From Hypoxylon rubiginosum (lineage: Eukaryota > Ascomycota > Sordariomycetes > Xylariales > Hypoxylaceae), in contig CADCXA010000055.1 of the NCBI GenBank assembly GCA_902806565.1, forward strand, positions 930,001-994,000: 64,000 bases of DNA, given 5' to 3'. The stretch's first letter is position 1. Every line of letters starts with the position of its first letter. Below the pieces are notes generated by a model, which was not told the origin of the DNA, ran no database searches, and worked only from the letters and a program-made list of their open reading frames with translations. Shown in pieces: positions 4,653 to 39,394 of the stretch. The translations under genes were made by a program, and so were the position numbers.

Positions 4653-6555
4653 CTTGAAGAGGATTTGTTTGATGATTTTTCAGAATTCAGAATCGCTCCT
4701 TCAAAACGAGGCAGGTACGCACCCATAGTTGTTTTCGTTACTGCAGTTACTGAGTATTATCCTAAGGTACATAGGCTAAGTAGATACCTACCTAAGATAC
4801 TAATGAATGAAAAGGAAGAATCGCGACCTATAAATTTCTTTTTACAAATAGCAACTTGCACATAAATTTGGCAAATGTAGCTTAACCAACGGTATATATT
4901 AATGGCGTGCGTAATCCTCAGGCTTAAAATTTAACGCCTGCTCGGCTATTGCATTTACGATTGCATCATTTATCCTTCGTAGAAAACCTTCAACTTATAG
5001 TCATCCGTTAATCTCGAGTAAAATTCTCTAGACATGGTATTATTAGGTACCTTTGGTAGATGTCCAGGTAATACAATTTGTTTCATATATATTGCATTTT
5101 TCTGGTATATTTATATGCATGAAGCTTATGACGATGGTGTTAATTTACAGCATAGCGTTTAAGGGTGTAACGGTAACTCCTTAAACTATAACAAAAATAT
5201 AGTTTAAAGGTTGTGAGTAATAATATACTTGTTCCTTTTGCCTGGTTTTATATTAACGACTGTTTTCCGCTTGAACCTTTCAACGAGAGGAAACTGGAAT
5301 CTTCTTAGCATTGCGTTGAGTTTGCGAAAGACCAGATTGGCTAGCTACATGCCTCCTTACTTACCTAGGTAGATATCTTGGTCAAGGACCCAGTGGGGGC
5401 TCAGGATCACGCTCCATTTAGGTCCGTGATATCTTTGCCTATTATATTCGTTTTTGTGTTTAGCATTAAATTTGGGATTTCAGTCGGCCGAAATGGATCA
5501 ACCCGGAGGCTGTGTGCTGACGGGGTATTGCTTGCTCTTTAGAAAACCGAAATACCTCATTGGGCATCTAGAATGTTAGTGGTATTAATTTAACATCACC
5601 TTATGTTAGACACCATCACAAGGAGGACTTTTATACTGGCACACCTTAACTATAATTAAGTCCCTACATACTTTCCGTTACTTTTACAATACACTTATGA
5701 CTATTCCAAAGATGCCTTCTTTAAAAAAATACCATGGTAAGTGAATAAGACTTGTGGAGTTTAAAAGCATCAAACCTGCCTTCTAGACATGATATCAAGT
5801 AATGCTTGAGTAGGCACTTATTTAGTATCCGTGCTTGGTTGGCGCTTAATGGATAAATGAATGCAGTAATCAAAAGCCAAGTGTAGAATTAAATAGAGCT
5901 TGCTAGGATACATACCTAGTTACGAAGTATGGGTTGGTTTGAGTTTATATGGCTAGGGACCTGGGAGGTAGGTAAATTGTTGGATGAATTTGATATAAAC
6001 AAGGTGTTCAAAAAGGTTCACCAGAAGAATCGAACCATTGGCAAAAAAGCGAGTCGGGCAGCAGCTTTGTCAATGGGACATTACGTCTAGGTGCCTCCGC
6101 TCTCGAAACCCCCTTTGTGTCAAGGATTTTCTCTAACCCTTAGTCATCCAGCCCGCACATACTATTGCACCAAGTAGGCAAGTTGGCAAGTTAGGAGGGG
6201 AAGAGGGCTGATGACTGGTTTGTTTTAAAACCATATGCTATACAGAGGGTAGGGGGTAACCAGGAAGGTAGGTACCTAAGGTAGAAGCCACGTTCCCTAA
6301 GAAACAGAGAGCTATCAGTATCAGTATCACATGGAGGATTAAGGCCTAAATACGTTCGATGGTTGCTATCCCAGCATGCCTCTTCAGAAGAACATCTGTT
6401 AGCACTATGTTGGGCCTGTCACGAAGCCAACCATGCGATAAGGAAAAAACTATGTTATTGCACGAAGAGCTATGAACCTAGGTGGCGACCGAGTCCTATG
6501 TATATACATGAGGCCAGGATAAAGGGACCTATAAGCCAAGAGGTCTAGCTGGTGT
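4653..6555. other. Gene-free intergenic stretch
   Basis: About 1.9 kb, moderately AT-rich, with no reading frame I trust. It holds an imperfect hairpin at 5179-5210 (arms CCTTAAACTATA and TATAGTTTAAAGG) and a TACCTAGGTA palindrome at 5362-5371, with a related GGTAGGTACCTAAGG near 6268. It may contain decayed mobile DNA, but I recognise none. Confidence 0.6.
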
Positions 6556-13045: not shown

Positions 13046-16000
13046 CAAATAAATAACAAACTATTATAAAACTAATTAATTAATAAAAGTTAAATTAATA
13101 TATTTAATTAAAATAATAATATATATTTAAAATATATTATTAAATTTTATTTATTAATAATATATATAATATTTATTTAAATATAAATAATAAATAATTT
13201 ATATAATATTTTATTATTTAATATTAACGAAATATTAAATTAAAATATAATTATATATTTTATTTATAATATATATTAATAAAAGTTAAATAATAAAATA
13301 TAAAATTAATATTATATATTTTATTAAATTAAATATAAATAAAAAATAATTAATATAATATTTTATTATTTAATATTAATAAAATTTAAAATTAAATTAA
13401 AATTATATATTTTATTTAAAATATATATTAATAAAAGTTAAATAATAAAATATAAAATTAATATTATATATTATATAAAATTAAATATAAATAATAAATA
13501 TTTTAATTAATATTTAATTATTTAATTTTAACGAATTTTAAAATTATATTAAAATTATATTTTTTTTTATAATATCTATTAATATAATAATAATAATAAA
13601 ATAGAAAAATAATATATTTAATAAATAAATAAAATTTATTATATAATAAAATTAATTAAAAATAAATAAATAATTTTATAATTAATATTAAATTATTTAA
13701 TATTAACTAAATTTAAAAAAATATTAAATTTAAATATTTTATATATAATATATATAAATATTATAATTATAATAAAATATAAATTTAATAATACTTATTA
13801 TATTAAATTAAATATAAATAATTAATATATAAAATAATATTTAATTATTTAATATTAATAATTTTTAAAAGTATAATAAATTAATAAATTTTATTTATAA
13901 TATATATAAATATAATAATAATAATAAAATATAAACTTAATAATATATAATAAGTTAAATTAAATATAAATAATAAATATATATATTAATATTTAATTAT
14001 TTAATATTAACGAAATTTTAAAATATATTATTTTATTTTATTTTATTTATAATATATATAAATATAATAATAATAATAAAATATAAAATTAATAAAAAAT
14101 AATATATTTAATTATATATAATTAATAAATATATAAATTAATATTTAATTATTTAATATTAATAAAACTTAAATTTTAATTAACGTTTTATATTTTTTTT
14201 ATAATATAAATTAATTAAATTTAAATAATAAAATATAAAATTAATAATATATATTATATTTAATTATATATAAATAATAAATATTTTATTAAATATTTTA
14301 TTATTTAATATTAATAAAATAAAACATTAAATTAAAATTTTATATTTTATTTATAATTTATTTTTATTAAATTCTAATAATAAAATATAAAATTAATAAT
14401 ATATATTATATTAAGTTAAATATAAATAATTAATATATAAAGTAAAATTTAATTATTTAATATTAATAATTTTTAAAAGTATTTTAAATTTATATATTTT
14501 ATATATATTATATATAAATATAATAATTATAATAAAATATAAAATTAATAATATAAAATAAATTAAATTATATATAAATAATAGATATATATATAAATAT
14601 AATAATAATAAAATATATTAAATTTAATTAAATATAAATAATAAATATAAATAAAATAATAATAATAAAATATAAAATTAATAAAATATAATAAATTAAA
14701 TGAAATATAAATAATAAATATATAAATTAATATTTAATTATTTAATACTAATAAAACTCTAATTTTATTTAATATTTTTATTTTTATTTATATTATATAT
14801 TTATAAAATTTAAATAATAAAATATAAAATTAATAATATATATTATATTTAATTAAATATCAATAATATTTTTTTATTTAATATTAAAGAAATTTAAAGT
14901 TAAATTAAAATTATATATTATATTTATAATTTATTTTTATTAAAATTTAATAATACAAATTTTAATAAATATTTAATTATTTAATATTAACTAAATTTTA
15001 AATTATATTATAATTAAATATTTTATTTATAGTATTTATAAATATTATTAATATATATTATATTAAATTAAATAGAAATAATAAATATATAAAATATTAT
15101 TATATTATTTAATACTAATAAAATTTAAATTTATATTTAAGTAATATATTTTATTTAAAATATATATTAATAATATTATAATAATAAAATAAAAGTTTAA
15201 TAATATATATTATATAAAACTAAATATAAATAATATATATTTTATTTATATTTTAATTATTTAATATTAACGGAATTTAAATTAATATTTAAAAAATATA
15301 TTTTATATAAAATATATATTAATAATATTATAAAAATAAACTATAAATTAAAAATATATATTATATAAAATTAAATATAAATAATAAATATATTATTTAT
15401 TATTTAATTATTTAATATTAATAAATTTTTAAATTATATTAATAATATATATAAAAAGAAACTAAATATAAATAATAAATTATTTAATTAATATTTAATT
15501 ATTTAATATTAATAATATTAAAAATTATATTAATTTTATTTTTTTATTTATAATATATATAAATATAATAATAATAATAAATTATAGAAATAATAATATA
15601 TATTAAATAAAATTAAATATAAATAATAAATATATAAAGTTATATTTAATTATTTAATATTAAAAAATATTAAATTTTTATTAAATTTATAGATTTTATT
15701 ATAATATATATAAATATTATAATAATAAAAGAATTAAAAAATTAATAATATAATATAAATTAAATAAAATATAAATAATAAATAATTAAATTAAAATTAT
15801 AAATTTTATTTATATTATATATTAATAAATGTTTAATAATAAAATATAAAATTAAATATAAATAACATATATTATAATTAAATTATAAATATTTAATATT
15901 AAAAAAAATAAAATTTTAAATTTTATTTATAATATATATAAATAAATATATAATAATATAATATAAATATAATAAGAAATTAGAAAATAAATTAAATATA

Positions 16001-19000
16001 AATAATAAATATTATAATTAATATTTAATTATTTAATATTAATAAAATTTAAAGAAAATATTAAATTTATATATTTTATATATAATATATATATATAATA
16101 TAATTATAATAAAATATAAAATTAGTAATATTTATTATTTTAAATTAAATATAAATAATTAATATTTAAAATAATATTTTAATTATTTAATATTAACGAA
16201 ATATAAAATTATATTAAAATTATATATTTTATTTATAATATATATTAATAATATTATAATAATAAAATATAAAATTAATAATATATAATATATAAAACTA
16301 AATATAAATAATAAATATTTTATTTATTATTTAATTATTTAATATTAAAAGAGTTTAAAGTTATATTTAAATAAAATATTTTATTTATAATATATATTAA
16401 TAATATAATAATAATAAACTATAAAATTAATAATATATATTATATAAAATTAAATATAAATAATAAATATATTATTTATTATTTAATTATTTAATATAAA
16501 CGAAACTTTAAATTATATTAATATTATATATATTATTAAAAACATATATTAATAATATTATAATAAATAAATATAATAATAAAAATAAAATATAAAATTA
16601 ACTTATTTAATTAAAAAAATTAAAAAATAAAAGAAATATAAAATAAATTTAAATTTAAGTTTTATATTTTTTAATTATAATAATTATTTATAAAACTAAT
16701 TATATCTATTAATTAAATTTAATATAAATAAATAATATATAAATAAAAATTTAATTATTTAATATTAATAAAACTTTAAAATATATTATTATTTTATATT
16801 TTATTTATAATATATTTTTATTATATTTTAATATTTAAATATAAAATTAATATTATAAATAAGTTAAATTTAAATATAAATAATAAATAATTTAGATAAT
16901 ATTTTATTATTTAATATTAATAATATATAAAATAAAATTAAAGTTATATATTTTATTTAAAATATATATAAATAAAGTTTTAATAATAAATTATAAAATT
17001 AATATTATATATTATATTAAATTAAATATAAATAATAAATAATATAATTATTAATTAATTATTTTATATTAAATAAATTAATAATTAAATTTAACTTATT
17101 TATTATTTTTTTAATATATATTAAAAATATTATAATAATAAAATATAACATTAATAAAATATAAATAGTAAATATTTAAAATAATATTTAATTAATTATT
17201 ATTAATATAATTAAAAAATAAATTAATAATTTATATTTTATTTATTATTTATTATTTAATAATTATAATAATAAATTATAAAATAAATAATATATATAAA
17301 ATTAAGTTAAATATAAATAATAAATATTTTTATTAAACTTTAATTATTTAATATTAATATAATATATTTCTAATATAATATATATATTAATAAGAAAAAG
17401 AATTAAATATAAAATTAATAATAAATATTTTAATTAATTTTTAATTATTTATTATTAATAATACTTTATATTATATTAATATTATATATTTTATTTATAA
17501 TATATATAAATATAATAATAATAATAATTTATTAAATTAATAATATATAATAAGGTTAATTAAAAAAAAATTATAAATATATATATTAATATTTAATTAT
17601 TTAATATTAATGAAATTTAAAACTATATTAAAATAAAATATTTTATTTATAATATATATAAATATAATAATAATTATAAATTATAAAAATAATAATATAT
17701 ATTAAATAAAGTTAAATATAAATAATAAATATAGAAATTAATATTTAATTATATAATATTAATAAAACTTAAAATTAAATTAATATTTTATATTTAATTT
17801 ATAATATATTTTAGTAAATATTTAATAATAAAATATAAAAATAATAATTTATATTAAATTAAATTAAGTATAAATATAAAATATATAAATTAATATATAA
17901 TTATTTAATATTACCGAAACTTAAAGTTATATTAATATTATATATATTTATTATAATATATATATTTATAATAATAATAATAAAATATAATATTAATAAT
18001 ATAAAAAAGTTTAATAAAATATAAATAAATATATTAATATTTAATATTTAATATTTTAATAATAAAATATATAAATATAATAATAATAATAAAATATAAT
18101 ATTAATAATATATAATATATTAATTTAAATATAAAATATAAAAAAGAAATTTAAATTTTTAATTATTTAATATTAATAGAATTTAAAAATATATTAAATT
18201 TAAACATTTTATTTTTAATATATATAAATATAATATTATAAATAAAAAAGTAAAAATAAATATATATAATAAATTAATAAAATATAAATAATAATTATTA
18301 AAATTAATATTTAATTATTTAATATTAAAATAATTAAAATTAAAATTAAAATTTAATATTTTATTTATAATATATCTTTATTAAATTTTAATAATAAAAT
18401 ATAAAATTATTAATATATATTATATTTCTTTAAATATAAATAATAAATAATTTATATAATAATTTATTATTTAATATTAATAAAGTTTTATATTAAATTA
18501 AAATTATATATTTTATTTATAATATATAATAATAAAAATTTAAAAATAAAATATAAAATTAATATTATATAATTTATTAAATTAAATATAAATAAAAATT
18601 AATTAATAATATATATTATATAATATTAAATATAAATAATAAATCGTATAATTAAACTTTTATTATTTAATATTGAATAAAATTAATTTTAAATTATAAT
18701 TTTATATTTTATTTATAATATACTTAAATATATATTTTATAATAAAATATAATATTAATTATATTTATTATATTAATTAAATATAAATAATAAATATATA
18801 TAAAAAATATTTAATTATATTATATTAATAAATATTATAATAATAAAGAAATATAAATTAAATAAATAATAAATATTTTAATTAATATTTATTTATTTAA
18901 TATTAATAAAATTTAATAAATATAATAAATATATAAATTTAAAAATAATATTAAATTAAATAAATTATAAATAATAAATTAAAAAATTAATATTTAATTA

Positions 19001-19437
19001 TTTATTATTAATAAAATATAAAGTTAAATTAACCCTTTATATTTCTATTTTTTTATAGTTTTATTAGATTTTTATATTTAAATATAAAATTAATAATATA
19101 TAATATATTTAATTATTTAATATTAATAAAATATAAAGTTATATTAAATTTAAATATTTTATTTATAATATATATAAAACGTATTTAATAATAAAACTTA
19201 AAATTAAATTAAAATTATATATTTAACTTAAATATAAATAATAAATAATTTTATAAAAATTTAATTATTTAAAAGTTAATTTAATTTAAATAAAGATTTA
19301 AGTTTAATATTTTATTTATAATATACTTTTATTATATGTTAATAATAAAACATAAAATTAATAATATATATTATATTTATTTAAATATAAATAATAAATA
19401 ATTTATATAATATTTTATTATTTAATATTAACGAAGT

Positions 19438-19770
19438 TTTAAATTAATTAATAATTATATATTTTATTTATAATATATATTAATAATAGTTCAATAATAA
19501 AATATAAAATTAATAATTATTATTATATTAAATTAAATATAAATAATAATAAATATATATAATATTTTATTATTTAATATTAATAAAATCTTAATTTAAA
19601 ATATAAGTATATATTTTATTTATAATATATATTAATAATAGTTTAATAATAAAATATAAAATTAATAATTATTATTATATTAAATTAAATATAAATAATA
19701 ATAAATATATATAATATTTTATTATTTAATATTAATAAAATCTTAATTTAAAATATAAGTATATATTTTA
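19438..19770. repeat. Two nearly identical adjacent satellite A monomers
   Basis: The segment around 19,585-19,736 repeats almost base for base 152 bp further on (19,737 onward), including the uncommon string AAAATCTTAATTTAAAATAT. Other neighbours in the array differ at many sites, so this pair looks recently duplicated or homogenised. Confidence 0.75.
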
Positions 19771-19875
19771 TTTATAATATATATTAATAAAGGTTTAATA
19801 ATAAAATATAAAATTAATATTATATATTTAATTAAATTAAAAATAAATAAAATAATATTAATATAATATTTTATT

Positions 19876-21040
19876 ATTAAAGTTAAGTTTTTAAAGTTTT
19901 AACTATAACTTTAATTATAAGGTTTATAATATATATAATAAATTTTACGTTTTATATTAATTTAAATCTTTATTTTATTTTGATATTATATATTTAAGTA
20001 TTTATTTTTAAACTTACTTTAAATTATAATATTTAATATTTACTTTTTAAATTTAAATTTATTATTTTTTATACCTTAAAATTAATTTAATTTTATTTTT
20101 AATAAAAAGGAGTTTAATTAATAAATTAGTTAAAATATTTTTATTATAAGATATATAATTTTTTTATATTTTAAAATAATAAGTATTTTAATATATTTTT
20201 TATATATATTAATATTAAAACTTAAAATTAACAATATATTAATATAAATATTATAATTATTATATTAATAAAATTAACTTATTTTTTTATTAATAAGTTA
20301 TTAATATTATTATATTTTTTAACTTATTAATATATAAATCCTATAAAAATCCTTATATAAATTTTTATAAAAATTTTTATAAGATTTTATATTAATATAT
20401 TTATAAAGTAAGTTTATTAATAAATATTTTAATAATTTATTAATATTAACAACTAATTTTTTTATTAAACTTATTATTATATTTAAAAAGTTTTAATTTA
20501 TAGATTTATATATATAAATTTAAAATATAAATCTATAAAAATATTTATATAGTTTTTTAGCTTTTTAACTTTTTTTATTTTTATTTTAATTGTTAATATA
20601 ATATGAACTTATTAAATAATTAAAATATATATATATATAAAATATTAAAAGAAAATTTAAAACTTAATTATAAAATAATAATAAAAGTTATTTATTTATA
20701 TATTTAAAGCTTATATAATTATTTATATAATCGTGGTTATTTTATATAATATTATATATTAATTTTTTTATATAAAAATTATTATAATTAAACTTTTCTT
20801 ATAAAATAATAAAAATAATTATTTTTATAATACTTTTAAATACCACCTTTTTTATTAAAATTCAAAATTAAAAAAAAAATATTAAAGTTAAGTTTTTAAA
20901 GTTTTAATTATAACTTTAATTATAAAATTTATAATATATATAATAAAATTTATATTTTATATTAATTTAAATCTTTATTTTATTTTTATTATATCACTTA
21001 AAACTTTTATTTTTAAACTTATTTTAAATTATAATATTTA
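19876..21040. mobile_element. Decayed LTR-like element inserted in satellite A
   Basis: A 160-bp direct repeat (19,876-20,035 and 20,881-21,040, constant offset of 1,005 bp, no gaps) brackets about 845 bp of non-satellite AT-rich DNA. The satellite pattern stops at the left edge and resumes at the right edge. A possible 5-bp target duplication TTATT lies at 19,871-19,875 and 21,041-21,045, though such a string is weak evidence in this composition. No reading frame survives. Size and structure suit a small non-autonomous LTR element or a heavily mutated deletion derivative. Confidence 0.6.
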
Positions 21041-24000
21041 TTATTTAATATTAATAAAATATATTATTAAAAAAAAATTATATATTTTATTTAAAATATA
21101 TATTAATAAAAGTTTAATAATAAAATACAAAATTAATAAAACTTATTATATTAAATTAAATATAAATAATTAATATATAAAATAATTTTTAATTATTTAA
21201 TATTAAAGATTTTTAAAAGTATAATAAATTAATAGATTTTATTTATAATATATATAAATAAAATAATAATAATAAAATATAAATTTAATAATATATAATA
21301 AATTAAATTAAATATAAATAATAAATATATATATTAATATTTAATTATTTAATATTAACGAAATTTTAAATTATATTAATTTTCTTTATTTTATTTATAA
21401 TATATATAAATATAATAATAATAATAAAATATAAAATTAAAAAAAAATAATATATTTAATTAAATATAAATAATAAATATATAAATTAATATTCAGTAAT
21501 TTAATATTAATAAAACTTAAAATTTAATTAACATTTTATATTTTTTTTATAATATAAATTAATTAAATTTAAATAATAAAATATAAAATTAATAATATAT
21601 ATTATATTTAATTATATATAAATAATAAATATTTTATTAAATATTTCTTTATTTAATATTAATAAAAGAAATTTAAAATAAAAGTTTATATTTTATTTAA
21701 ATTTATTTTTATTAAAGTTTAATAATAAAATATAAAATTAATAATATATATTATATTTAATTAAATATAAATAATATATATTTAATTAAAATATTAATTA
21801 TTAATAAAAGAAAATTAAAATTAAAATTAAAGTTTTATATTTTATTTATAATATATATAAATATTATAATTATAATAAAATATAAAATTAATAATATATA
21901 TTATATTAAATTAAATATAAATAATTAATATATAAAATAAAATTTAATTATTTAATATTAATAATCTTTTAAAGTATTTTAAATTTATAGATTTTATATA
22001 TATTAAATATAAATATAATAATTATTATAAAATATAAAATTAATAATATATAATAAATTAAATTAAATTAAATATAAATAATTAATATTTAATATATTAT
22101 TTAATTGTTTAATATTAACGATTTTTAAAAAGTTATTAAATTTATAAATTTTATATATAATATATATAAATATAATAATAATAATAAATTATAAAAATAA
22201 TAATATATATTAAATAAAATTAAATATAAATAGTAAATATATAAATTAATATTTAATTATATAATAAAACATATAAATAAATTAAAGTAAATATAAATAA
22301 TAAATTTATAAATTAATATATAATTATTTAATATTAACGAATTTTAAAATTATATTAAATTAATAAATTTTATTTATAATAAATATAAATATAATAATAA
22401 TAATAAAATATAATATTAATAATATATAATAAATTAATTTAAATATAAATTATAAAAAAGATTTATATTTTTAATTATTTAATATTTATAGAATTTAAAG
22501 ATATATTAAATTTAAATATTTTATTTTTAATATATATAAATATAATATTATAAATATAAAATAAAAATATGTAATATATAATAAATTAATATAATATAAA
22601 TAATAAATATTTAAATTAATATTATATTAATATTATATATTGTATTTATTATATATAAAAATAATATTATAATAATAAACTTTTAAATTAAATTAAAACT
22701 ATATATTTAAGTTAAATATAAATAATAAATATTTTTATAAAAGTTTAATTATTTAATATTAAAATAATTAAAATTAAAATTTAAATTTAATATTTTATTT
22801 ATAATATATTGTTATTAAATTTCAATAATAAAATATAAAATTAATAATATAAATAATATTTATTTAATTATAAATAATAAATATTTATATAATATTTTAT
22901 TATTTAATATTAACGAAACTTTAAATTAAAATATAATTATATATTTTATTTATAATATATATTATTATAAGTTTAATAATAAAATATAAAATTAAATATA
23001 AATAATAAATATTTTAACTAATATTTAATTATTTAATTTTAATAAAGTTTAAAATTTTATTAAAATTATATTTTCTTTTATAATATATATTAATATAATA
23101 AAAATAATAAAATAAAAAAATAATTTAATTAATAAAATAAAAAGGTTTATATTATATAATAAAATATAATAAAAATAAATAAATAATTTTATAATTAATC
23201 TTTAATTATTTAATATTAATAAGGTTTAAAAAAATATTAAGTTTATATATTTTATTATTTAATATTAACGATTTTTAAAAGTATAATAAATTAATAGATT
23301 TTATTTATAATATATATAAATATAATAATAATAATAAAATATAAACTTAGTAATATAAAATAGATTAAATTAAAAATAAATAATAAATATATAAATTAAT
23401 ATTTAATTATTTAATATTAATGAAATATAAATTTAAATTAAATCTTTTTATTTTATTTATAGTATATATAAATTTAATAATAATAATAAAATATAAAATT
23501 AATAAAAGATAATGAATTTAACTAAATATAAAAAATAAATATATATATTAATATTTAATTATTGAATATTAATAAACTTAAATTTTAATTAACGTTTTAT
23601 ATTTTCTTAATAATATAAATTAATTAAACTTAAATAATAAAATACAAAATTAATAATATATATTTTAATTAAAATATATATTATTAATATAAAATAAATT
23701 AAAATTAAAATTAAAGTTTTATATTTTATATAAAATATATATAAATAAAATAATAATAATATAATATAAAAAAAAAAATTCTAAATTAAATTAAATTAAA
23801 TTAAATATAAATAATTAATATTATAAATAAATTTATAAATTTTATATATAATATATATAAATATTATAATTATAAATAATATAAACTTAATAATATTAAT
23901 TATATTTTATTATTTAATATTAACGATTTTAAAAATATATTAAGTTTATAAATTTTATTTATAATATATATATATATAATAATATTAATAAAATATAAAT

Positions 24001-27000
24001 TAAAAGATATTTATTATAATAAATTAAATATAAATATATAAATATATAAAATAATATTTAATTATTATATATTAAAGGATTTTAAATTTTTATTAAATTT
24101 ATAGATTTTATTATAATATATATAAATATTATAATAATAAAAAAATTAAAATAATAATAATATAATATAAATTAAATAAAATATAAATAATAATTAATTA
24201 AATTAATTTTATATTATTTAATATTAATAAGATTTAAATTAAATTAAAAATATATATTTTATTTATTATATATAGTACTAAAACTTTAATAATAAAATAT
24301 AAAATTAAATACAGATAATAAATATTATAATTAAACTAAAAATATTTAATATTAAAAAAAATAAAGTTTTAAATTTTATTTATAATATATATAAATAAAT
24401 ATTTAATAATATAATATAAATATAATAAAAAATAAAAAAATAAATTAAATATAAATGTTAAATATTATAATTAATTATTAATTATTTAATATTAACGAAA
24501 TTTAAAAAAATATTAAATTTATAAATTTTATATGTAATATATATAAGTAATATAATTATAATAAAATATAAAATTAATAATATTTATTATATTAAATTAA
24601 ATATAAATAATTAATATTTAAAATAATATTTCATTATTTAATATTAACGAAATATAAAATTATATTAAAATTATATATTTTATTTATAATATATATAAAT
24701 ATAATAGTAATAATAAAATATAAAATAAATACAATATAATAAATTAAATTAAATATAAATAATAAATATATATATTAATATTTAATTATTTAATATTAAC
24801 GAAATTTAATATTATATTTAATTTTTTTATTTTATTTATAATATATAATAATATAATAATAATAAATAAATATAAAATTAATAATAAATATAACAATAAA
24901 TATTTAATTATATAATATTAACGAAATTTAAAAGACAATTAAATTTATATATTTTATATATAATATATATAAATATAATAATAATAATATAATATAAAAG
25001 AAATTAAAAGAAATTAAATTAAATTAAATATAAATATTTAATATATAAAATAATATTTAATTATTTAATATTAATAAAACTTTAAGTTATATTAATATAT
25101 TATTTTTTATTTATAATATTTTTTTATTAAACTTTAATATTTAAATATAAAATTAATAATAAATATTTATTTAATTTAAATATAAATAAGAAATAATTTT
25201 ATTATTATTTTATTATTTAAATATTAATAATATTTAAAATTAAATTAAAGTTATATATTTTATTTAAAATATATATAAATAAAATTTAAATAATAAAATA
25301 GAAAATTAATATTATATATTATATTAAATTAAAATTTATAAATAAATATTTTAATAAACGTTTAATTATTTAATATTAATAGAATTTTAAATTATATTAA
25401 TATTATATATTTTATTTATATTATATATTAATAATATTATAATAATAAAATATAATATTATTAAATTAATAATAATAATAATAAAAATAATAATTATATT
25501 TAATTATAAATTAATTATAATTAACTTTTAAAATATAAAATATAATTTATAAATATAACTTAAAATAAATTTAATTTTTTATAAATATTAATTAAAAATA
25601 TTATATTTAATTTAATATAAATATTAAATATTTAAAATAATATTTAATTATTTATTATATTTATTTATTTATTATTAATATAACTAAAAAATAAATTAAT
25701 AATTTATATTTTTTTATAAAACTTTATTTGTTTATTATAATAATATATTATAAAAATAATAATATATATTAAATTAAATTAAATATAAATAATAAAAGTT
25801 TTTATTAAGCTTTATTTATTTAATATTAATAATTTAAATAATATTATTAATATTATATAATTTATTTATAATATATATATTTATAATAAATAATATAAAA
25901 TATAAAACTAATAATATATATTATATTTAATTAAATATAAATAATAAATATTTTAATGAATATTTAATAATTTATTATTAATAAAATTTAATATTATATT
26001 AATATTAAATATTTTATATATATTATATATAAATATAATAATAATAATAATTTATTAAAATAATAATATATAAAAAGCTTAATTAAATAAAAATAATAAA
26101 TATTTTACTTAATTTTTAATTATTTATTATTAATAAGATTTAATGTTATATTAATATTAAATATTTTATTTATAATATATATAAATATAATAATAATAAT
26201 AAATTATAAAACTAATAATATATATTAAATAAAATTAAATATAAATACTAAATATTTAAATTAATATTTAATTATATAATAATATTAAAATATAAAATTA
26301 AATTAAGGTTTTATATTTAATTTATAATATATGTTTATAAATATTTAAAAGAAAAATATAAAATTAATAATTTATATTAAATTAAACTAAATATAAATAG
26401 TAAATATATATATTAAAATTTAATATTTTAATATTAATAAAATTTAAAACGATATTAAATTTATATATTTTATTTATAATATATATAAATATAATAATAA
26501 CAATAAAATATATAATATTAATAATATATAATAAATTAATAAAATATAAATAATAAATATTTTTTTAAAACTTTATTTATTAAATATTAAAATTATTTAA
26601 ATTAACGTTTAAATTTAATATTTTATTTATAATATATTTTTATTAATTTTTAATAATAAAATATAAAGTTAATAATATATATAATATTTATTTAATTATA
26701 AAAAGTAAATATTTTATATAATATTTTATTATTTAATATCAACGAAACTTTTATTTAAATTATAATTATATATTTTATTTATAATATATATTAATAAAAG
26801 TTTAATATTAAACTATAAAATTAAGATTATATATTTCATTAAATTAAATATAAATAATAAATAATTTATAAAATATTTTATTATTTAATATTAACGAAAT
26901 TTTAACTTAAAATATAATTATATAATATATTTATAATATATATTAATAAAAGTCTAATAGTAAAATATAAAATTAATATTATATATTATATTATATTAAA

Positions 27001-30000
27001 TATAAATAATAAATATTTTAATTAATATTTAATTATTTAATTTTAAGGAAGTTTAAAATTATATTAAAATTATATATTTTATTTATAATATATATAAATA
27101 TAATAATATTAATAAAATATAAAATTAATAATATATAATAAATTAAATTAAATATAAATAATAAATATATATATTAATATTTAATTATTTAATACTAATA
27201 ATATATAAAATTATATTAAATTTATATATTATATTTATAATACATATAATTATAATAAAAATAATAAAATATAAAATTAATAAAATATATTAAATTTAAT
27301 TAAATATAAATAATTAATATATAAATTAATATTTAATTATTTAATATTAATAAAACTTAAACTTTATTTAACGGTTTAAATTTTATTTATAATATATATT
27401 TAATAAACTTAAATAATAAAAAATAATATATATTATAATTAATTAAATATAAATAATAAATATTTCAATAAATATTCTATTATTTATTATTAACGAAATT
27501 CAAAATTAAATTAAAAATAAATATTTTATTTATAATATATATAAATAATATTATAATATTAAAATATAAAATAATATTAATATTATATATTTTATTTAAA
27601 TATAAATAATAAATATATATATTAATATTTAATTATTTAATAATAATATAACTTAAATTTTAATTAAGGTTTTATAGTTTTTATATAATATAAATTAATT
27701 AAACTTAAATAATAAAATATAAAATTAATAATATATATTATATATAATTATATATTAATAATAATTATTTTATTAAATATTTTATTATTTAATATTAATA
27801 AAATAAAAAATTAAATTAAAATTATATATTTTATATATAATTTATTTTTAATAAATTTTAATAATAAAATATAAAATTAATAATATAAATTATATTTAAT
27901 TAAATATATATAATATATATTTTTAATAAAATATAAATTTTTAATATAAAAAGAATTACAATTAAAATTAAAGATTAAAGTTTTATTAAAAATATATATA
28001 AATATAATAATAATAATATAATATAAATTTAATAATATATAATAAATTAAAATAAATATAAATAATTAATATATATTATAATATATAATTATTTAATATT
28101 AACGAAATATAAACGTATATTAAATTTATATATTTTGTTTATAATATATATAAATATAATAATAATAATAAAATATAAAATTAATATATTATATTAAATT
28201 TAATTAAATATAAATAATAAATATATAAATTAATATCTAATTATTTAATATTAACGAACTTGAAAATTATTTTAAATTCTTTTATTTTATTTATAATATA
28301 TATAAATATAATAATAATAATAAAATATAAAATTAATAATATATAATAAAATAAAATAAATATAAATAATAAATATATATATTAATATTTAATTATTTAA
28401 TGTTAATAAAATATAAAATAATATTAAATTTATATATTTTATTTATAATATATATAACTATAATAATAATAATAAAATATAAAATAAATAAAATATATTA
28501 TATTTAATTAAATATAAATAATAAATATATAAATTAATATTTAATTATTTAATACTAATAAAACTTAAACTTTAATTAATATTCTATATTTTATTTAAAA
28601 TATATATTTATTAAACTTAAATAATAAAATATAAAATTAATAATATATATTTAATTTAATTAAATATAAATAATAAATATTTCAATTAATATTTTATTAT
28701 TTATTATTAATAAAGTTTAAAATTAAATTAAAGTTATATATTTTATTTATAATTTATTTTTATTAAACTTTAATAATAAATTATAAAATTAATAAAATAT
28801 ATATTATTTAATTAAATATAAATAATAAATATTATAATTAATATTTAATTATTTAATATTAATAGAATTTAAAAGAATTTTAAAGTTATATATTTTATAT
28901 ATAATATATATAAATATTATAATTATAATAAAAACAAAATTAATTATATTAATTATATTAAGTTAAATATAAATAATAAATAAACTAAATAATATTTAAT
29001 TAATAAATTTTATTTATAATATATTTAAATATAATATTAATAAAAAAATATAAAATTAATAATATATAATAAATAAAATTAAATATAAATAATAAATATA
29101 TATATTAATATTTAATTATTTAATATTAACAATATTTAAAATTAAATTAAAGCTATATATTTTATTTAAAATATATATAAATAAAATTTTAATAGTAAAA
29201 TATAAAATTAATATTATATATTATATAAAATTAAATTTTAATAATAAATATTTTTATAAAAGTTTAATTATTTAATATTAATAAAATTTTAAATTATATT
29301 AATATTATAATAATAAAATATAATATTAATTAAATATATTATAATTAATTAAATATAAATAATTAATATTTAAGATAAAATTTAATTATTTATTATTAAT
29401 ATAATAAAAAAATAAATTTATAATTTATATTTTATTTATAAAATATTATTTTTTAATTATAATAATAAATTATAAAAATAATAATATATATTAAACTAAA
29501 TTAAATATAAATAATAAATATTTTTTTAAAAATTTAATTATTAAATATTAAAATTATTTAAATTAAAGTTTCAGTTTAATATTTTATTTATAATATATTT
29601 ATATTAACATTTAATAATAAAATAAAATTAAAAATATATATAATATTTATTTTATTATAAAATATAAATATTTTATATAATATTTTATTATTTAATATTA
29701 ATAAAACTTTAAATTAAATTATAATTATATATTTTATTTATAATATATATAAATAAAAGTTTAATAATAAAATATAAAGTTAATATTATATATTATATTA
29801 AATTAAATATAAATAATAAATATATCATTTAAAAATTAATTATTTAAAATTAATAAAAGTTTAAGTTAAATTAATATTTAATTAATTAAACGTTATATAT
29901 TTTATTTAAAATTAAATATTAAAATATAAAATTTAATATTAATAATATATATTTTTATTAAATTTTAATTATTTACTTTTAACGAAATTTAAATTTAAAT

Positions 30001-30230
30001 TAATATTATATATTTTATTTATAATATATATAACTATAATAATAATAAAAAGATTTAAAATTAATAATAAATATTTTATTTAATATTAATACAATTTTAT
30101 TTAATTTAAAATATATATAATATATTAATTTAAATTTAAATAATATATAATTTATTTATTATTTAATTACTTAATATTAATATTATTTAATATTAAAATT
30201 AAATATTTTATTAATATTTAATAAAAATAA

Positions 30231-33200
30231 ATATTTTAAGTTTATTATAATTGTTATCTTTTATTTTTATAATTTTTATAACGTTATATAATATTATTTT
30301 AAATTTTATATTTTATTAAAGTAATTTTAAATAACGTTATATAGATTATAAAAATAAAATAAAATTTTATTTATAAACTTTAAACTTTAAGGTTTATTAA
30401 AATAAAAATTATTTATTTTTATTATTTTTATAACGTTATATAAAATTACTTTAATATAATATAAATATTAAAGTAATGTTAAATAACGTTATATAAATTA
30501 TAAAAATAAAATACGATTTTATTTATAAATTTTAGTTTTTAAAATTTATTAAACTAAAAGCTGTTTATTTTTATAATTTTTATAATATTATATAAAATTA
30601 TTTTATTATTTATATTTTATTAAAGTAATTTTAAATAACGTTATATAAATTATAAAAATAATATATAATTTTATTTATATATTTTAACTTTTAAAGTTTA
30701 TTAAAATATTAATCGTTTATTTTTACGACTTTTATAACGTTATATAAAATTACTTTGATATTTATATTTAATTAAAATAATTTTAAATAATATTATATAA
30801 ATTAAAAAAGTAAAACATAATTTTATTTATAAAGTTTAGTTTTTAAAGTTTATTAAAATAATTACTCTTTATTTTTACGATATTTATAACGTTATATAAA
30901 AGTTCTTTAATATTTATATTTTATTAAAATAATTTTAAATAACGTTATATAAATTTTAAAAATATAATACGATTTTATTTATAAATTTTAAATTTTAAAG
31001 TTTATTAAAATAAAAACCGTTTATTAATAAAATCTTTATAATTTTATATAAAATTACTTTAAAATTTATATATTATTAAAGTAATTTTAAATAAAATTAT
31101 ATAAATTATAAAATAAAAAAATTTTATTTATAATATTTTATTTTTAAATTTTATTATAATTATTATTATTTATTTCTTTTAATTTATATAATATTATTTA
31201 AAGTTTTTTTAAAATTTTTATTATATTAAAATAATTTTAAATAACTTTATATAAAGTAAAAAAATAATATATTAAGTTATTTATATATTTTAATTATTAA
31301 AGCTTTTTATAATTATTTTTATTTAGTTTTATAATTTTTATAACGTTATTTAAAAGAATTTTAATATTTATATTATATAAAAATATTTTTAAATAGCATT
31401 ATATAAGCTATAAAATTATAATATTAATTTAATATAAAATCTAATTTTTTAAATTTATTATAATTATTATTATTAATTTTTACTATTTTTATAATATTAT
31501 ATAAAATTATTTTAATATTTATATTTTATTAAAGTAATTTTAAATATCTTTATATAAATTCTAAAAATAAAATATAATATAACTTTTTAATTTTAAACAT
31601 TAAAATTTATTAAAATAATAATTGTTTATTTTTATAATTTTTATAACGTTATTTAAAATTACTTTAATATTTATATTTAATTGAAGTAATTTTAAATAAC
31701 GTTATATAAATAATAAAAATAAAATATTTATTTATTAATGAAGTTTAACTTTTTAAATTTATTATAATTATTAATTTTTATTTTTACGATTTTTATAACG
31801 TTATATAATATTACTTTTAAATTTTTATTTTATTAAAATAATATTAAATAACGCTATATAAATTATAAAAATAAAATACGATTTCATTTATAAACTTTAA
31901 CTTTTAAAGTTTATTAAAATAATAACCGTTTATTTTTATAATTTTTATAACGTTATTTAAAATTACTTTAATATTTATATTTTATTAAAGTAATTTTAAA
32001 TAACGTTATATAAATAATATCAATAAAATATTAATTTATTTATAAAGTTTAACCTTTAAAATTTATTATAATTATAATATTTTATTTTTACGATTTATAT
32101 AACGTTATATAAAATTACTTTAAAATTTATATTTTATTATAATAATTTTAAATACCGCTATATAAATTATAAAAATAAAATACGATTTTATTTATAAACT
32201 TTAATTTTTAAAGTTTATTAAAATAATAACCGTTTATTTTTATAATTTTTATAACGTTATATAAAATTACTTTAAAATTTATATTTATTAAAGTAATTTT
32301 AATTAACGTTATATAAATTATAAAAATAACATATAATTTTATTTATAAACTTTAAATTTTAATGTTTATTAAAATAATACTTAATTATTTTTATAATTTT
32401 TATAACGTTATATAAAATTATTTTAATATAATATAAATATTAAAATAATTTTAAATAACGTTATATAAATTATAAAAGTAAAATACGATTTTATTTATAA
32501 ATTTTAGTTTTCAAAATTAATTAAAATAATAATTATTTAATTTTATAATTTTTATAACATTATATAAATTTATTTTAATATTAATATTTTCTTAAAGTAA
32601 TTTTATATAATAATATATAAATTAAAAAAATAAAATATTAATTTATTTATAGAAATATATTTTTAATATTTAATAAAATATTAACTGTTTATTTTTAGGA
32701 TTTATATTACGTTATATAAAATTATTTTAATATTTATATTATAATTAAGTAATTTTAAATAACGTTATTTAAATTATAAAAATAAAATACGATTTTATTT
32801 TTAAATCTTAATTTTTAACGTTTATAAAAATAATATTTCTTTATTTCTTTAATTTTTATAACGTTATAAAAAAATATTTTAATTTTTATATTATATTAAA
32901 GTAATTTTAAATAACGTTATATAAATTGTAAATATAAAATACGATTTTATTTATAAACTTTAAGTTTTAAAGTTTATTAAAATAATAACAGTTTATTTTA
33001 TAACTTTTTATAACGTTATATAAAAGAATTTTTATATTTTTAGTTTATTAAAATAATTATAAATAACGTTATATAAATTATAAATAAAAAATATAATTTT
33101 TTTTATAAAATATAATTTTTACAGTTTATTAAAATAATAATTGTTTATTTTTATAAATTTTATAACGTTATATAAAGTTACTTTAATATTTATATTTTAT

Positions 33201-34736
33201 TAAAATAATTTTAAATTACGTTATATAAACTATAAAAATAAAATATTAATTTATTTATAAAACGTAATATTTTAAGTTTATTATAATTATTAATTTTTAT
33301 TTTTACGACTTTTATAACGTTATATAAAATCACTTTAATATTTATATTTTATTAAAATAATTTTAAATAACGTTATATAAATAATAAAAATAAGATATTA
33401 ATTTATTTATAAAGTTAAAAGTTTTAAGTTTATTATAATTATTATTTTTTATTTTTACGATTTTTATAATATTATATAAAATTATTTTATAACTTATATT
33501 TTATTAAAGTAATTTTAAATAACGTTATATAAATACTAAAAATAAAATATTAATTTATTTATAAAGTTTATTTTTTTAAGTTTATTATAATTATTACTTT
33601 TTATTTTTACGATTTTTATAATATTATATAAAATTACTTTAAAATTTATATTTTATTAATATAATTTAAATAACGTTATATAGATTATTAACATAAAATA
33701 TAATTTTATTTATAAACTTTAATTTTTAAAGTTTATTAAAATAATAACCGTTTATTTTTACGAAATTTATAATTTTATATAGAATTATTTTAATATTTAT
33801 ATTTTATAAAAGTAATTTTAAATAGCTTTATAAAAATTATAAAAATAAAAAAAAATTTTATTTATTAACCTTAGATTTAAAAGTTTATTAAAATAATAAC
33901 CGTTTATTTTTATAACTTTTATAACGTTATATAAAATTACTTTAATATTTAAATCTTATTAAAATAATTTTAAATACTTTTATATAAATTATAAAAATAA
34001 AATATAATATATTTTATTAACTTTAAATTAAAAAGTTTATTAAAATAATAACCGTTTATTTTTATAACTTTTATAACGTTATATAAAATTACTTTAATAT
34101 TTATATTATATTAAAGTAATTTTAAATAATATTATATAAATAATAAAAATAAAATATTAATTTATTTAAAAAGTTTAAACTCTTAAGTTTATTATAAATA
34201 TCATATTTTATTTTTACGATTTTTATAATATTATATAAAATTACTTTAATATTTATATTATATTAAAATAATTTTAAATAACGTTATATAAATAATAAAA
34301 ATAAAATATTAATTTATTTATAAAGTTTAATTTTTTAAATTTATTATAATTCTCACGTTTTATTTTTACGATTTTTATAACGTTATATAAAATTACTTTA
34401 AAATTTATATTTTATTAAAGTAATTTTAAATAACGCTATATAAATTATAAAAATAAAATACGATTTTATTTATAAATTTTAGTTTTTAAAATTTATTAAA
34501 ATAATAGTTATTTATTTTATAATTTTTATAATATTATATAAAATTATTTTATTATTTATTATTTATTAAAGTAATTTTAAATAACGTTATATAAATTATA
34601 AAAGTAAAATATAATTTTATTAATAAGTTTTAAGTTTTAAAATTAATTAAAATAATAACCGTTTAATTTTACGATTTATATAACGTTATATAAAATTACT
34701 TTAATATTAATATTTTATTAAAATAATTTTATATAA
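30231..34736. repeat. Satellite B, left segment: 152-bp tandem array
   Basis: The landmark TAACGTTATATAAAATTACT recurs with a 152-bp step: 30279, 30431, and later 31948, 32100, 32252, 32403, 32555, 32707, 32859, 33011 and 33163. Each unit holds two AACGTT boxes about 53 bp apart at the ends of a large imperfect dyad, a second perfect dyad AAACTTTAA-TTT-TTAAAGTTT, two TACGATTTT boxes and one ACCGTTTA box. About 29 copies lie in this segment. The sequence does not align by eye with satellite A. Confidence 0.93.
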
Positions 34737-36193
34737 TATAATAAAGTATAGTTTTAATATTTTGTAATTAATAAAACATTGTAAATAATATTAAATATAA
34801 AAAATATATTAAAAATATATTAATTAGTATGAATATTTAATTAATATTAAAATATTTTATATATAATAAAAATGGTATTTAAAAAAAGGTTATTTTAATG
34901 TAATATTTAAGTAAGTTATATAGTAAACTTAAGTTATATATAGTTTAAAATATTATATAATATTTTAATATTTTAATATTTTAATTTTATTATAGCTTTT
35001 TTTTATAGCGACGATAAGTTTTTATTAAATTGAAGCTATATAAAATAAATAAACAAATAAATAAATAAATAAGTAACTAAATATATAATTACTAAGTTTA
35101 AGTAAGCCTTGAAAAAAAAAATTTTCAGGATATATATACTGGTAGTTTTTTTGTAACTTTTTTTTTTATATTTAATATTTTGTAGTTTTTCTTTTTATAT
35201 TTAATATTTATATTTTTTTATATATAATTAGTGTTTTAATTAATTTAATATTATTTTAAATCTTTTTTTTGAAATTTTGAAATTTTAATACCTAGGATTT
35301 AGATTTAAATTAAAACTTAAATTTAAACTTAAATTTAAATTTGGATTTAAATTTATAGATTTAAACTTATAGATTTAAATTTAAAAAAGTAATTATATAA
35401 AACTTTTTAAGCTTTAAAACTATTTTCTTATACTTAATTTTTATTTAATATTTTAAGTATTTAATATTTTTATAGTTAATATTTTAATAATTAAAGTTTT
35501 ATAAGTTTTAATTAATTAATATTTTATAATTAGTATTTTACTTGGTATTTTACTTAGTATTTTACTTAGTATTTTATTAATTAAAATTTTATATAATTAA
35601 AACTAAGATTTTATAGGTTTTAATTAATTGGTATTTTATAATTAATAAATATTATATATAATTAATAATAATATATATAAATTAATTAATATTATATTAG
35701 TTTAATTGGTAAATATTATAAATAATTTTATTTATAAATACCTAAGAATTTTTTAATATATAAATTTTAATATAATAAAAAAGAAAAATAATAAAAAGGA
35801 ATAAAAAACTTTAAAATTTCCATATTTAAAAGCTTATAATATTTATTTTAATTGATATTATATTAATTAAAATAAATAAAAATAATCTTTTTAAAACTAT
35901 AATTATATAGATTTAAATTTAAATTAAACGTTAATTATAATAAAATATAATTTTAATATCTTATAATTAATAAAATATTATAAATAATATTAAATATAAA
36001 AGATATATTAAAAATATATTAATTAGTATAAATATTTAATTAATATTAAAATATTTTATATATAATAAAAATAATATTTAAAAAAAAACTATTTTAATAT
36101 AATATTTAAATAAGTTATATAGTAAGTTTAAACTATATATAACCTAAGATATTATATAATATTTTAACACCCTGATATTTTAATTTTATTATA
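34737..36193. mobile_element. Decayed LTR-like element inserted in satellite B
   Basis: Terminal direct repeats of about 258 bp (34,737-34,994 and 35,936-36,193) align without gaps at a constant offset of 1,199 bp. They differ at roughly 30 positions, and every difference I could find is a transition (C/T or G/A). The inner 940 bp is not satellite; it contains the string TATAGCGACGATAAG, homopolymer runs and a short TATTTTACTTAG tandem repeat near 35,540. No open frame survives. If the outer edges are taken as 34,737 and 36,189, a possible TATAA target duplication appears. The likely origin is an LTR retrotransposon or TRIM-like element altered by RIP or cytosine deamination. Confidence 0.7.
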
Positions 36194-39100
36194 ATAATAA
36201 TATATATATTATAAAAATAAAATATTAATTTATTTTTATATCTTTATTTTTTATATTAATTAAAATAATAACCTTTTATTTTTTCGATTTATATACTGTT
36301 ATATAAAATTATAAAATTATATGGTTATTATTTTAATTAATTTTAAAAATTAAAACTTATTAATAAAATTATATTTTATTTTTATAATTTATATAACGTT
36401 ATTTAAAATTATTTTAATATTAATATATTATTAATATAATTTTATATAATAATATATAAATTATAAAAATAAAATATTATTTTATTTATAAACTTTAATT
36501 TTTAAAATTAATTAAAATAATAACCATTTATTTTTATAATTTTATAACGTTATATAAAATTATTTTAATATTTATATTTTATTTATATAATTTTATATAT
36601 CGTTATAAAAATTATAAAAATAAAATATAATTTTATTTATAAATTTTAATTTATAAAGTTTATTAAAATATTAATTATTTATTTTTATAAGTTTTAAAAC
36701 GTTATATAAAATTACTTTAATATTAATATTTTATTAAAATAAATTTATATAATAATATATAAACTTTAAAAATAATATATTTTTTTATTTATAATATTTA
36801 ACTTTTAATATTTATTATTAATATTATTATTTATATTAATAATTTATATAATATTATATAAAATTATTTTTATAATTATATTATATTAAAATAACTTTAT
36901 ATAACGCTATATAAATTATAAAAATATTATATAAATTTATTTATTATATTTAATATTTAATGTTTATTAAAATAATAATTATTTATATTTATAACTTTTA
37001 TAACATTATATATATTTAAAATATAAACTTTAATTTATTTATATGTTTTAATATTTAAAAATATATAAAATTAATAGTTGTTTATTTTTACAATTTCTTT
37101 AATTTTATATAAAATTATTTTAATATTTATATTATAATAAAGTAATTTTAAATAACGTTATTTAAATTATAAAAATAAAACACGATTTTATTTTTAACCT
37201 TTTATTTTAATGCTTATTAAAATAATACGTATTTTTTTTTACGATTTTTATAACGTTATATAAAATTACTTTAATATTTATATTTAATTAAAATAATTTT
37301 AAATAATATTATATAAATTAGAAAAATAAAATATAATTTTATTTATAAAGTTTAGTTTTTAAAATTTATTCAAATAATTACTTTTTATTTTTACGATATT
37401 TATAACATTATATATAATTACTTTAATATTTATATTTTATTAAAATAATTTTAAATAATGTTATATAAATTTTAAAAATATAGTACGATTTTATTTATAA
37501 ATTTTAAATTTTAAAGTTTATTAAAATAATAACCGTTTATTTTTATAACTTTTATAACGTTATTTAAAATTACTTTAATATTTATATTTTATTAAAGTAA
37601 ATTTAAATTAAATAACGTTATATATATAATAAAAATATAATATTAGTTTATTTATAAACTTTAATTTTTAGATTTTATTATAATTATTACGCTTTATTTT
37701 TACGATTTTTATAACGTTATATAAAATTACATTAAAATTTATATTTATTAAAGTAATTTTAAATAACGTTATATAAATTATAAAAATACAATACGATTTT
37801 ATTTATAAATTTTAATTTTTAAAGTTTATTAAAATAATAACCGTTTATTTTTATAATTTTTATAATATTATATAAAATCACTTAAATATTTATATTTTAT
37901 TAAAATAATTTTAAATAACATTATATATATTATAAAAATAAAATATAATTTTATTTATAAATTTTACTTGTTTAAATTTATTAAAATAATAATTATTTAT
38001 TTCTATAAGTTTTATAACGTTATATAAAATTACTTTAATATATATTTTTTAATAAAATGATTTTAAATAATGTTATATAAATTATAAATATAAAATATAA
38101 AATTATTTATAAAAGGTAATTATTTAAATTTATTTTAATTATCATTATTTATTTTTATAATTTTTATAACGTTATTTAAAATTACTTTAATATTTTTATT
38201 ATATTAAAATAATTTTAAAGAATATTATATATATTTTAAAAATTAATTTTACTTTTATTTATATATTTCTATATTTATAAATTATTAATATAATCACCGT
38301 TTATTTTTACGATTTTTATAACTTTATATAAAATGATTTTAATATTTATATTATAATAAAATAATTTTAAATAACGTTATTTAAATTATAAAAATAAAAT
38401 ACGATTTTATTTTTAGACTTTAATTTTTAACGTTTATTAAAATAATATTTTTTTATTTTTTTATTTTTTATAACGTTATATAAAATTACTTTAATATTTA
38501 TATTATATTAAAATAATTTTAAATGATATTATATTAACTATAAAAATAAAATATTAATTTATTTATAAAATTTAAGTTTTTAAATTTATTATAATAATTA
38601 TTTTTTATTTTTATAATTTTTATAACGTTATATAAAATTACTTTAATATTTATATTTTATTAAAGTAATTTTAAATAACGTTATATAAATAATAAAAGTT
38701 AAAATATAAGTTTATTTATTAATATTAATTTTTAAAGTTTATTAAAATAATAACCGTTTATTTTTACGATTTTTGTAATATTATATAAAATTATTTTAAT
38801 ATTTATATTTTATTAAAATAATTTTAAATAATATTATATAAGTTTTAAAAATAAAATACGATTTTATTTATAAGTTTAAATTTTTAAAGTTTATTAAAAT
38901 TATAACTGTTTATTTTTACGATTTATATAATATTATATAAAATTATTTTAATATTTATATTATATTAAAATAATTTTAAATAACGTTATATAAACTTTAA
39001 AAATAAAATATAATTTTATTTATAAAAGTTTATTTTTATTATTTATTAAAATATTAACCGTTTATTTTTATAATTTTTATAACGTTATATAAAATTACTT

Positions 39101-39290
39101 TAATATTTATATTTTATTAAAATAATTTTAAAAAACTTTATATAAACTATAAAAATAAAATTTTATTTTATTTATACATTTTAATTTTTAAAGTTTATTA
39201 AAATTATAACCTTTTATTTTTATAATTTTTATAACGTTATATAAAATTAATTTAATATTTATATAATTAATATTAAAAACTTAAAATAAA
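36194..39290. repeat. Satellite B, right segment
   Basis: The same 152-bp unit continues in the same orientation and phase after the inserted element, with landmark starts at 38471, 38623, 38776, 38928, 39080 and 39232. About 20 copies. AACGTT boxes alternate with AATATT at the same position from copy to copy. The last recognisable copy fades out near 39,270. Confidence 0.92.
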
Positions 39291-39394
39291 TAAATTAGAA
39301 TTTAAAATATTTTAAAAAGCTTTTTATATAAAACTTTATTATTTATTTAATTTATATAAGTTTTTATTAAATATTTTATTATTTCGCCAGTGTT

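Follow-up and report, generated by a model that had tools for sequence, protein, structure and literature searches.

AT-rich blocks and centromeres of fungi are usually described as the remains of transposons mutated by repeat-induced point mutation (RIP), and a nucleosome-length satellite is the usual centromere substrate in plants and animals. Here we analyzed a 64,000-nucleotide stretch of the ascomycete Hypoxylon rubiginosum (the window; positions 930001-994000 of contig CADCXA010000055.1, hereafter C55, in assembly GCA_902806565.1 of 48,274,338 bases and 70 contigs), which carries a 26-kb AT-rich block. The block was composed mostly of two unrelated families of 152-bp tandem units, F1 and F2, both bearing a RIP-type mutation signature, and a second block of the same design was found on contig C6. 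By analogy with other RIP-mutated DNA, we consider it likely that this RIP-saturated satellite pair forms an island of constitutive heterochromatin.

The closest described systems, as far as the cited portions of the papers go, share several of these traits. The AT-rich blocks or AT-isochores of Pezizomycotina are likewise gene-poor and of RIP type, occur many per genome, and reach tens of kilobases (PMC5496416, PMC6218096). Interspersed blocks are normal in Trichoderma reesei, which has 2328 of them (PMC5496416), and in Epichloe festucae, where they average 25.7 kb and consist of RIP-mutated repeats, largely transposons (PMC6218096), whereas the C55 block is mostly tandem satellite. The regional centromeres of Sordariomycetes are also AT-rich, gene-poor, RIP-type, and repeat-made (Verticillium, PMC7482064; T. 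reesei and Neurospora, PMC5496416), but they measure ~94-174 kb in Verticillium dahliae (PMC7482064) and 162-208 kb in T. reesei (PMC5496416), compared with 26 kb for the C55 block, which in a pattern search had a counterpart on one further contig only. The (peri)centromeric satellites of plants and animals resemble F1 and F2 in their near-nucleosome unit, AT richness, tandem arrangement, and the dyad symmetry of one family (PMC8122249); here, however, each family has ~50-100 units per block, the units are RIP-mutated, and neighbors are barely closer to each other than distant units. The AT-rich elements of Aspergillus flavus also form families that are partly RIP-derived, some with constant polarity (PMC9910759), but they are subtelomeric and are described in a text that never uses the word "tandem," whereas F1 and F2 form tandem arrays within the interior of C55 and C6 alike. 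A limited literature search, covering few subscription journals, found no RIP-mutated nucleosome-length satellite for any filamentous ascomycete. The RIP substrate at this locus would be such a satellite rather than transposon remains. With the F1/F2 system it can be tested directly whether cytosine loss lets a tandem repeat survive RIP, and the single period of two unrelated families makes it possible to ask if repeat length is set by nucleosome spacing irrespective of sequence.

Two satellite families with one period

The G+C content (GC) was 4.2% inside positions 13046-39383 of the window versus 49% on one side of the block and 48% on the other, and no open reading frame (ORF) of at least 50 amino acids was found there, so that the block is AT-rich and gene-free in the manner of regional ascomycete centromeres. 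Autocorrelation at lag 152 was 0.642 for the block, whereas the highest value that 50 shuffles with preserved dinucleotides gave over lags 30-699 was 0.473. Furthermore, of 50 sliding windows, 47 had 152 itself as their top lag (60-449), and two of the three exceptions overlapped the second of two inserted elements. Profile alignment resolved the C55 block into 150 full units (at least 120 of 152 columns filled), 102 of F1 and 48 of F2, arranged as follows.

13046..39383, no strand: whole AT-rich satellite block, GC 4.2%, no ORF of at least 50 amino acids
13090..19870, + strand: F1 array, left part, 152-bp units of ~2% GC, from unit profile and pattern matches
19876..21040, + strand: insert 1, ~1.16 kb, with direct terminal repeats of ~160 bp at ~19876-20033 and ~20881-21040, ends set by eye
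21045..30220, + strand: F1 array, right part, from unit profile and pattern matches
30230..34735, + strand: F2 array, left part, 152-bp units of ~7% GC
34736..36193, + strand: insert 2, ~1.46 kb, like a long terminal repeat (LTR) element, with direct terminal repeats at ~34736-34994 and ~35936-36193, ends set by eye
36200..39265, + strand: F2 array, right part, from unit profile and pattern matches
39266..39383, no strand: AT-rich right border without clear units, changing abruptly to non-AT-rich DNA

F1 thus extends over ~13.09-30.22 kb and F2 over ~30.23-39.27 kb of the window. Exactly 152 bp were counted in 47/102 F1 and 35/48 F2 units on C55, and in 76/157 F1 and 75/111 F2 units when C6 was included, giving a modal length of 152 in each family; on the two contigs together, 174/183 F1 and 111/119 F2 pieces passed the full-unit cut-off, and 17 C6 F1 pieces overlapping inserts were left out of the final F1 count. 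Long head-to-tail arrays of a unit with modal length 152, a number indivisible by 3, together with the lack of ORFs, identify both families as noncoding satellites. These results bear out the original prediction, made by a model from the letters of the window, as to the block edges, the nearly pure A+T composition, the lack of genes, the 152-bp tandem period, the two families, and the two insertions (~19.88-21.04 and ~34.74-36.19 kb); its estimate was ~155 tandem units, compared with the 150 full units given above.

The sequences do not support F1 and F2 as diverged copies of a single unit: Smith-Waterman scores between them were 130 on one strand and 155 on the other, compared with 152 +/- 14 for shuffles. 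RIP alone would not have masked a kinship, because C-to-T and G-to-A changes preserve the pyrimidine or purine at each position. Two unrelated families with one modal 152-bp period in a single bipartite arrangement, together with recent unit duplicates that apparently arose once the array was almost free of C, are the most unusual features of this locus.

The F2 consensus was nearly its own reverse complement, the symmetry axes lying at columns 2 and 78 of the unit. Dyad symmetry was 80% in the C55 consensus (shuffles: mean 59%, maximum 68%) and 78% in the two-contig consensus, whereas that of F1 was not significant (0.684 versus 0.647 +/- 0.023 in shuffles, maximum 0.763). A maintained hairpin or cruciform was considered for F2 and rejected, as paired columns did not covary (z 0.35 on C55 and -0.04 on C6; slid controls -2.67 to 2.85). 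The same pairing test gave z values of 2.37 and -1.88 for F1, inside its slid-control range of -1.67 to 3.09. The F2 dyad is therefore real in the consensus but looks inherited. The AACGTT columns of F2 retained C or G in 62-71% of units; a selected protein-binding box was nevertheless rejected as the meaning of this palindrome, because ACGT also tops the residual CpG contexts of control RIP-type blocks.

RIP-type signature and unit turnover

CpA and TpG were depleted relative to ApC and GpT. The ratio (CA+TG)/(AC+GT) was 0.15-0.27 in pieces of the block, whereas the flanks had values of 1.13 and 1.14. In F1 and F2 of both contigs it was 0.11-0.22 (0.11-0.27 over all arrays), and 162 AT-rich control windows of 1 kb, grouped by GC, had 0.16-0.22. 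Copies also differed by C-to-T and G-to-A changes in the corresponding context, though many unit differences were A/T. At sites where some C55 units carry C, the C was retained before A in 8/96 cells of F2 and 2/82 of F1, before T in 82/204 and 21/73, and before G in 136/142 and 30/33, respectively; as the neighboring base may mutate too, the CpG and CpA counts are linked.

Residual C's stood in CpG context in 44% of cases in F2, in 18-20% in F1, and in 7-13% in control windows. The commonest residual CpG context was ACGT in F2 and in the control blocks, and ACGA in F1; ACGT versus ACGA counts were 215 versus 56 in control RIP-type blocks but 117 versus 305 in gene flanks. We read the high residual CpG of F1 and F2 as the make-up of the repeated unit; it may also reflect preferential keeping of CpG. 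Family-level matches to the cytosine methylases of PF00145 occurred at three places in the genome (C31:2084718, C12:289045, and C6:543310) and would fit genes of the RID and DIM-2 types. Taken together, the dinucleotide depletion and the context of the C losses point to a satellite that is itself RIP-mutated, with RIP or an equivalent C-to-T repeat defense as the presumed agent.

Neighboring units were hardly more alike than distant ones: mean identity at lag 1 and lag 20 was 0.788 and 0.781 in F1, and 0.817 and 0.808 in F2, which suggests an old amplification burst. Four F1 unit pairs were 97-100% identical, all of them neighbors or next neighbors, and four-unit segments ~7 kb apart were 94% alike; therefore, duplication went on later, and some units were apparently duplicated recently, after the array had become nearly C-free. 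A/T differences made up 62-82% of unit differences in F1, depending on the identity bin, and 46-58% in F2. This would be expected if older transversions had collapsed to A/T under RIP.

Genomic distribution and the sister block on C6

The whole genome was searched with F1 and F2 patterns at up to 2 mismatches, a limit that misses more diverged or unassembled copies, on contigs that are not whole chromosomes. The F1 pattern gave 54 matches, all forward, 38 on C55 and 16 on C6; the F2 pattern gave 87, of which 76 were forward and 11 reverse, 46 on C6 and 41 on C55. No other contig was hit, and the reversed-pattern controls gave 0 matches for either family. A similarity search with F2 had not listed the C6 F2 array, which the pattern search did find. 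Matches of ~64-72% elsewhere were taken for AT background because they lay on both strands and because, for F2, the highest-scoring one (140 bits) did not surpass F1 itself (143 bits).

The C6 block spans ~1792.9-1814.4 kb (21.5 kb) and holds 55 F1 and 63 F2 full units, with F1-then-F2 order and strand identical to those on C55; both blocks lie in the interior of their contigs. Exact (TTAGGG)4 telomere repeats were absent from C6 among the matches listed. F1 units were 0.769 identical between contigs versus 0.779 and 0.761 within them, and F2 units 0.812 versus 0.826 and 0.805. Multi-unit collinearity between the two blocks was not significant, the best 4-unit diagonals (0.883 in F1 and 0.880 in F2) being reached by 19/200 and 17/200 permutations, and the blocks had no obvious common termini. 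Comparing 4.9 and 3.6 kb of C6 flank with the C55 flanks, we found them unrelated save for one 62-bp match. A segmental duplication of the whole region was accordingly rejected. Because units are about as alike between as within contigs and no clear collinearity is left, the two chromosomes probably both received an F1-F2 composite of common ancestry, which later turned over internally. The 62-bp match (82% identity; window 6419-6480 and C6:1790632-1790691, in the left flanks of both blocks) is perhaps a small dispersed repeat.

AT-rich DNA was not confined to the satellite blocks. C55, surveyed in part, carried AT-rich blocks in at least three other places. One of them, of at least 26 kb, starts at ~485.2 kb and is split by ~0.5 kb at 42% GC into a piece of 485.2-499.0 kb and another that runs from ~499.5 kb past 511 kb; it contained three ORFs of 54-79 amino acids, and its top lag was 152 in 0/49 windows. 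We also examined 20 other stretches of the genome (196,639 bases of AT-rich DNA and some flank bearing genes), which were 20 from a longer list of matches to an AT-rich query and hence not a frequency sample. Their largest AT-rich pieces measured 1.4-10 kb, with GC of 3.6-8.0% and RIP ratios of 0.11-0.38; period 152 was absent from the top lags in all 20, and six test patterns at up to 3 mismatches gave 0 matches in them. Blocks with a 141-bp period on C11 and C31 were considered as a second satellite class and rejected, as both contain a dispersed element of one kind that has repeats inside it and whose two copies are 88% collinear along 5.8 kb. This element lies at C11:172001-177700 and C31:927030-932850, within AT-rich blocks that continue leftward for another 10 kb or more. 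The 141-bp period also occurs at C55:508701-510700, inside the second AT-rich block of that contig.

Both inserted elements are LTR-like and belong to dispersed families. With the query copy counted, insert 1 had at least 25 strong places in the genome (cut-off 363 bits, one overlapping self-match dropped) and insert 2 at least 42 (381 bits). The C6 F1 array holds two more copies of insert 1. Among the 25 listed places of insert 1, 17 were no more than 45 kb away from a known contig end and 3 lay in F1 arrays, whereas among the 42 of insert 2 these numbers were 10 and 1, the latter being the query copy. The contig-end bias gave a Fisher p of 0.0007, or 0.09 with contig starts only, for a 45-kb limit picked after the places had been seen and contig ends known for part of the contigs only. 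A preference of insert 1 for a particular heterochromatic compartment is only hinted at by these counts. The terminal repeats of insert 2 were 89% identical, with 29/32 substitutions being transitions in an alignment that takes in some flank, in keeping with RIP-type change, and the element had no ORF of at least 50 amino acids.

Heterochromatin, centromere, and other explanations

The likeliest function of the block is a passive one, namely, an AT-rich island packed as constitutive heterochromatin, as judged from comparable DNA in other fungi. F1 and F2 would be old satellite arrays; having grown as noncoding tandem repeats, they would then have lost almost all C and G to RIP or an equivalent C-to-T repeat defense. 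By analogy with the RIP-mutated AT-rich DNA of Neurospora, the resulting gene-free island would most likely nucleate constitutive heterochromatin (H3K9me3/HP1). With few C's left, new unit copies would offer little target to RIP, and parts of the array could keep duplicating. Given the matching order and strand of the C6 block, copying or exchange probably carried the F1-F2 composite from one chromosome to another; later turnover would then have wiped out the collinearity. Some observations weigh against this account. RIP as the C-to-T agent is read from sequence context. Among the 12 F1 pairs of at least 95% identity, 37 of the 60 differences were A/T, and the array is changing by non-RIP routes too. 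RIP-type change may, moreover, still be ongoing, because 18 of these 60 differences were C/T or G/A.

Alternatively, the block could serve the C55 chromosome as its centromere, either as the CenH3 core or as DNA flanking that core, and the C6 block could do so for its own chromosome, with other chromosomes using other AT-rich DNA. Centromere function at the two loci is possible, but we regard this explanation of the block as unlikely. There is one satellite block each on C55 and C6, interior in both, and the modal unit length of both families is near one nucleosome. The F2 dyad (0.80 versus a shuffle maximum of 0.68) would also suit a centromere, dyads being reported for various satellites in the cited part of PMC8122249, but its lack of covariation indicates that the symmetry is not visibly maintained. 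Insert 1, found in F1 arrays at 3/25 places and near contig ends at 17/25 versus 10/42 for insert 2, could mark a centromere-like compartment, although this bias drops to p = 0.09 with contig starts only. Confinement of the satellite patterns to 2/70 contigs speaks against centromeres, even though no single repeat family is present at every Epichloe centromere according to the portion cited of PMC6218096. As for size, the centromeric AT-rich DNA of filamentous fungi is given as 30-100 kb in the corresponding part of PMC9910759, little above 26 kb, but 26 and 21.5 kb are far under the ~94-208 kb of the two other Sordariomycetes. Finally, C55 itself carries another AT-rich block from 485 kb of at least 26 kb, though interrupted. 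A bolder version, in which a RIP-proficient fungus holds two unrelated satellites at a nucleosome-like period and in bipartite order on two chromosomes, amplifying once C-poor, as chromosome-specific RIP-resistant centromere or pericentromere DNA, appears improbable.

These results also bear on the functional part of the original prediction. Its centromere core was not upheld in view of the 2/70 contigs, the other AT-rich blocks of C55, and the small size; one satellite block per chromosome, which it had expected of a centromere, was not borne out by the pattern search at up to 2 mismatches. Many blocks per chromosome, which it had named as telling against its idea, were found on C55 for AT-rich DNA but not for the satellite. 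The heterochromatin island, its other suggestion, is consistent with what is reported for RIP-type, AT-rich, gene-free, repeat-made DNA. The prediction further set a true satellite against RIP-mutated DNA; the satellite stands, but the contrast falls away, as the satellite itself appears RIP-mutated.

It is rather improbable that F1 and F2 are remnants of tandem repeats from inside a single large element, mobile or duplicated, that has two copies in the genome and was RIP-mutated in place. The F1-then-F2 order on one strand in both copies would agree with such an element, and the RIP-mutated dispersed element of C11 and C31, which has at least two copies (88% collinear), carries internal repeats of 141 bp, a period that recurs at C55:508.7-510.7 kb. 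However, the collinearity of the C55 and C6 blocks is not significant (0.883 in F1 and 0.880 in F2, matched or exceeded in 19/200 and 17/200 permutations), their unit numbers are unequal (102+48 versus 55+63), no common termini are obvious, and the flanks are unrelated bar 62 bp. An assembly artifact of collapsed or falsely expanded low-complexity DNA is very improbable: AT-only arrays do assemble poorly and some neighboring units are 97-100% identical, but the units are mostly unlike one another (mean identity 0.76-0.83), and the insertions, the sharp dissimilar flanks, and the same-design block on another contig do not fit an artifact.

Rfam and tRNA scans of the whole window found nothing, and 13 of 17 flank ORFs scanned had a Pfam match (E 0.001) to families common in fungi. 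These included a fungal transcription-factor domain, MFS and sugar transporters, a zinc-binding dehydrogenase, RNase H, an alpha-galactosidase, a DEAH-type helicase, and a nitrilase with 91% identity to one from Eutypa lata, as well as NACHT and WD40 ORFs. The NACHT ORF and the WD40-repeat ORF adjoin on the same strand at window 55207-59362, ~16 kb to the right of the block, and are possibly parts of one fungal NLR-type gene.

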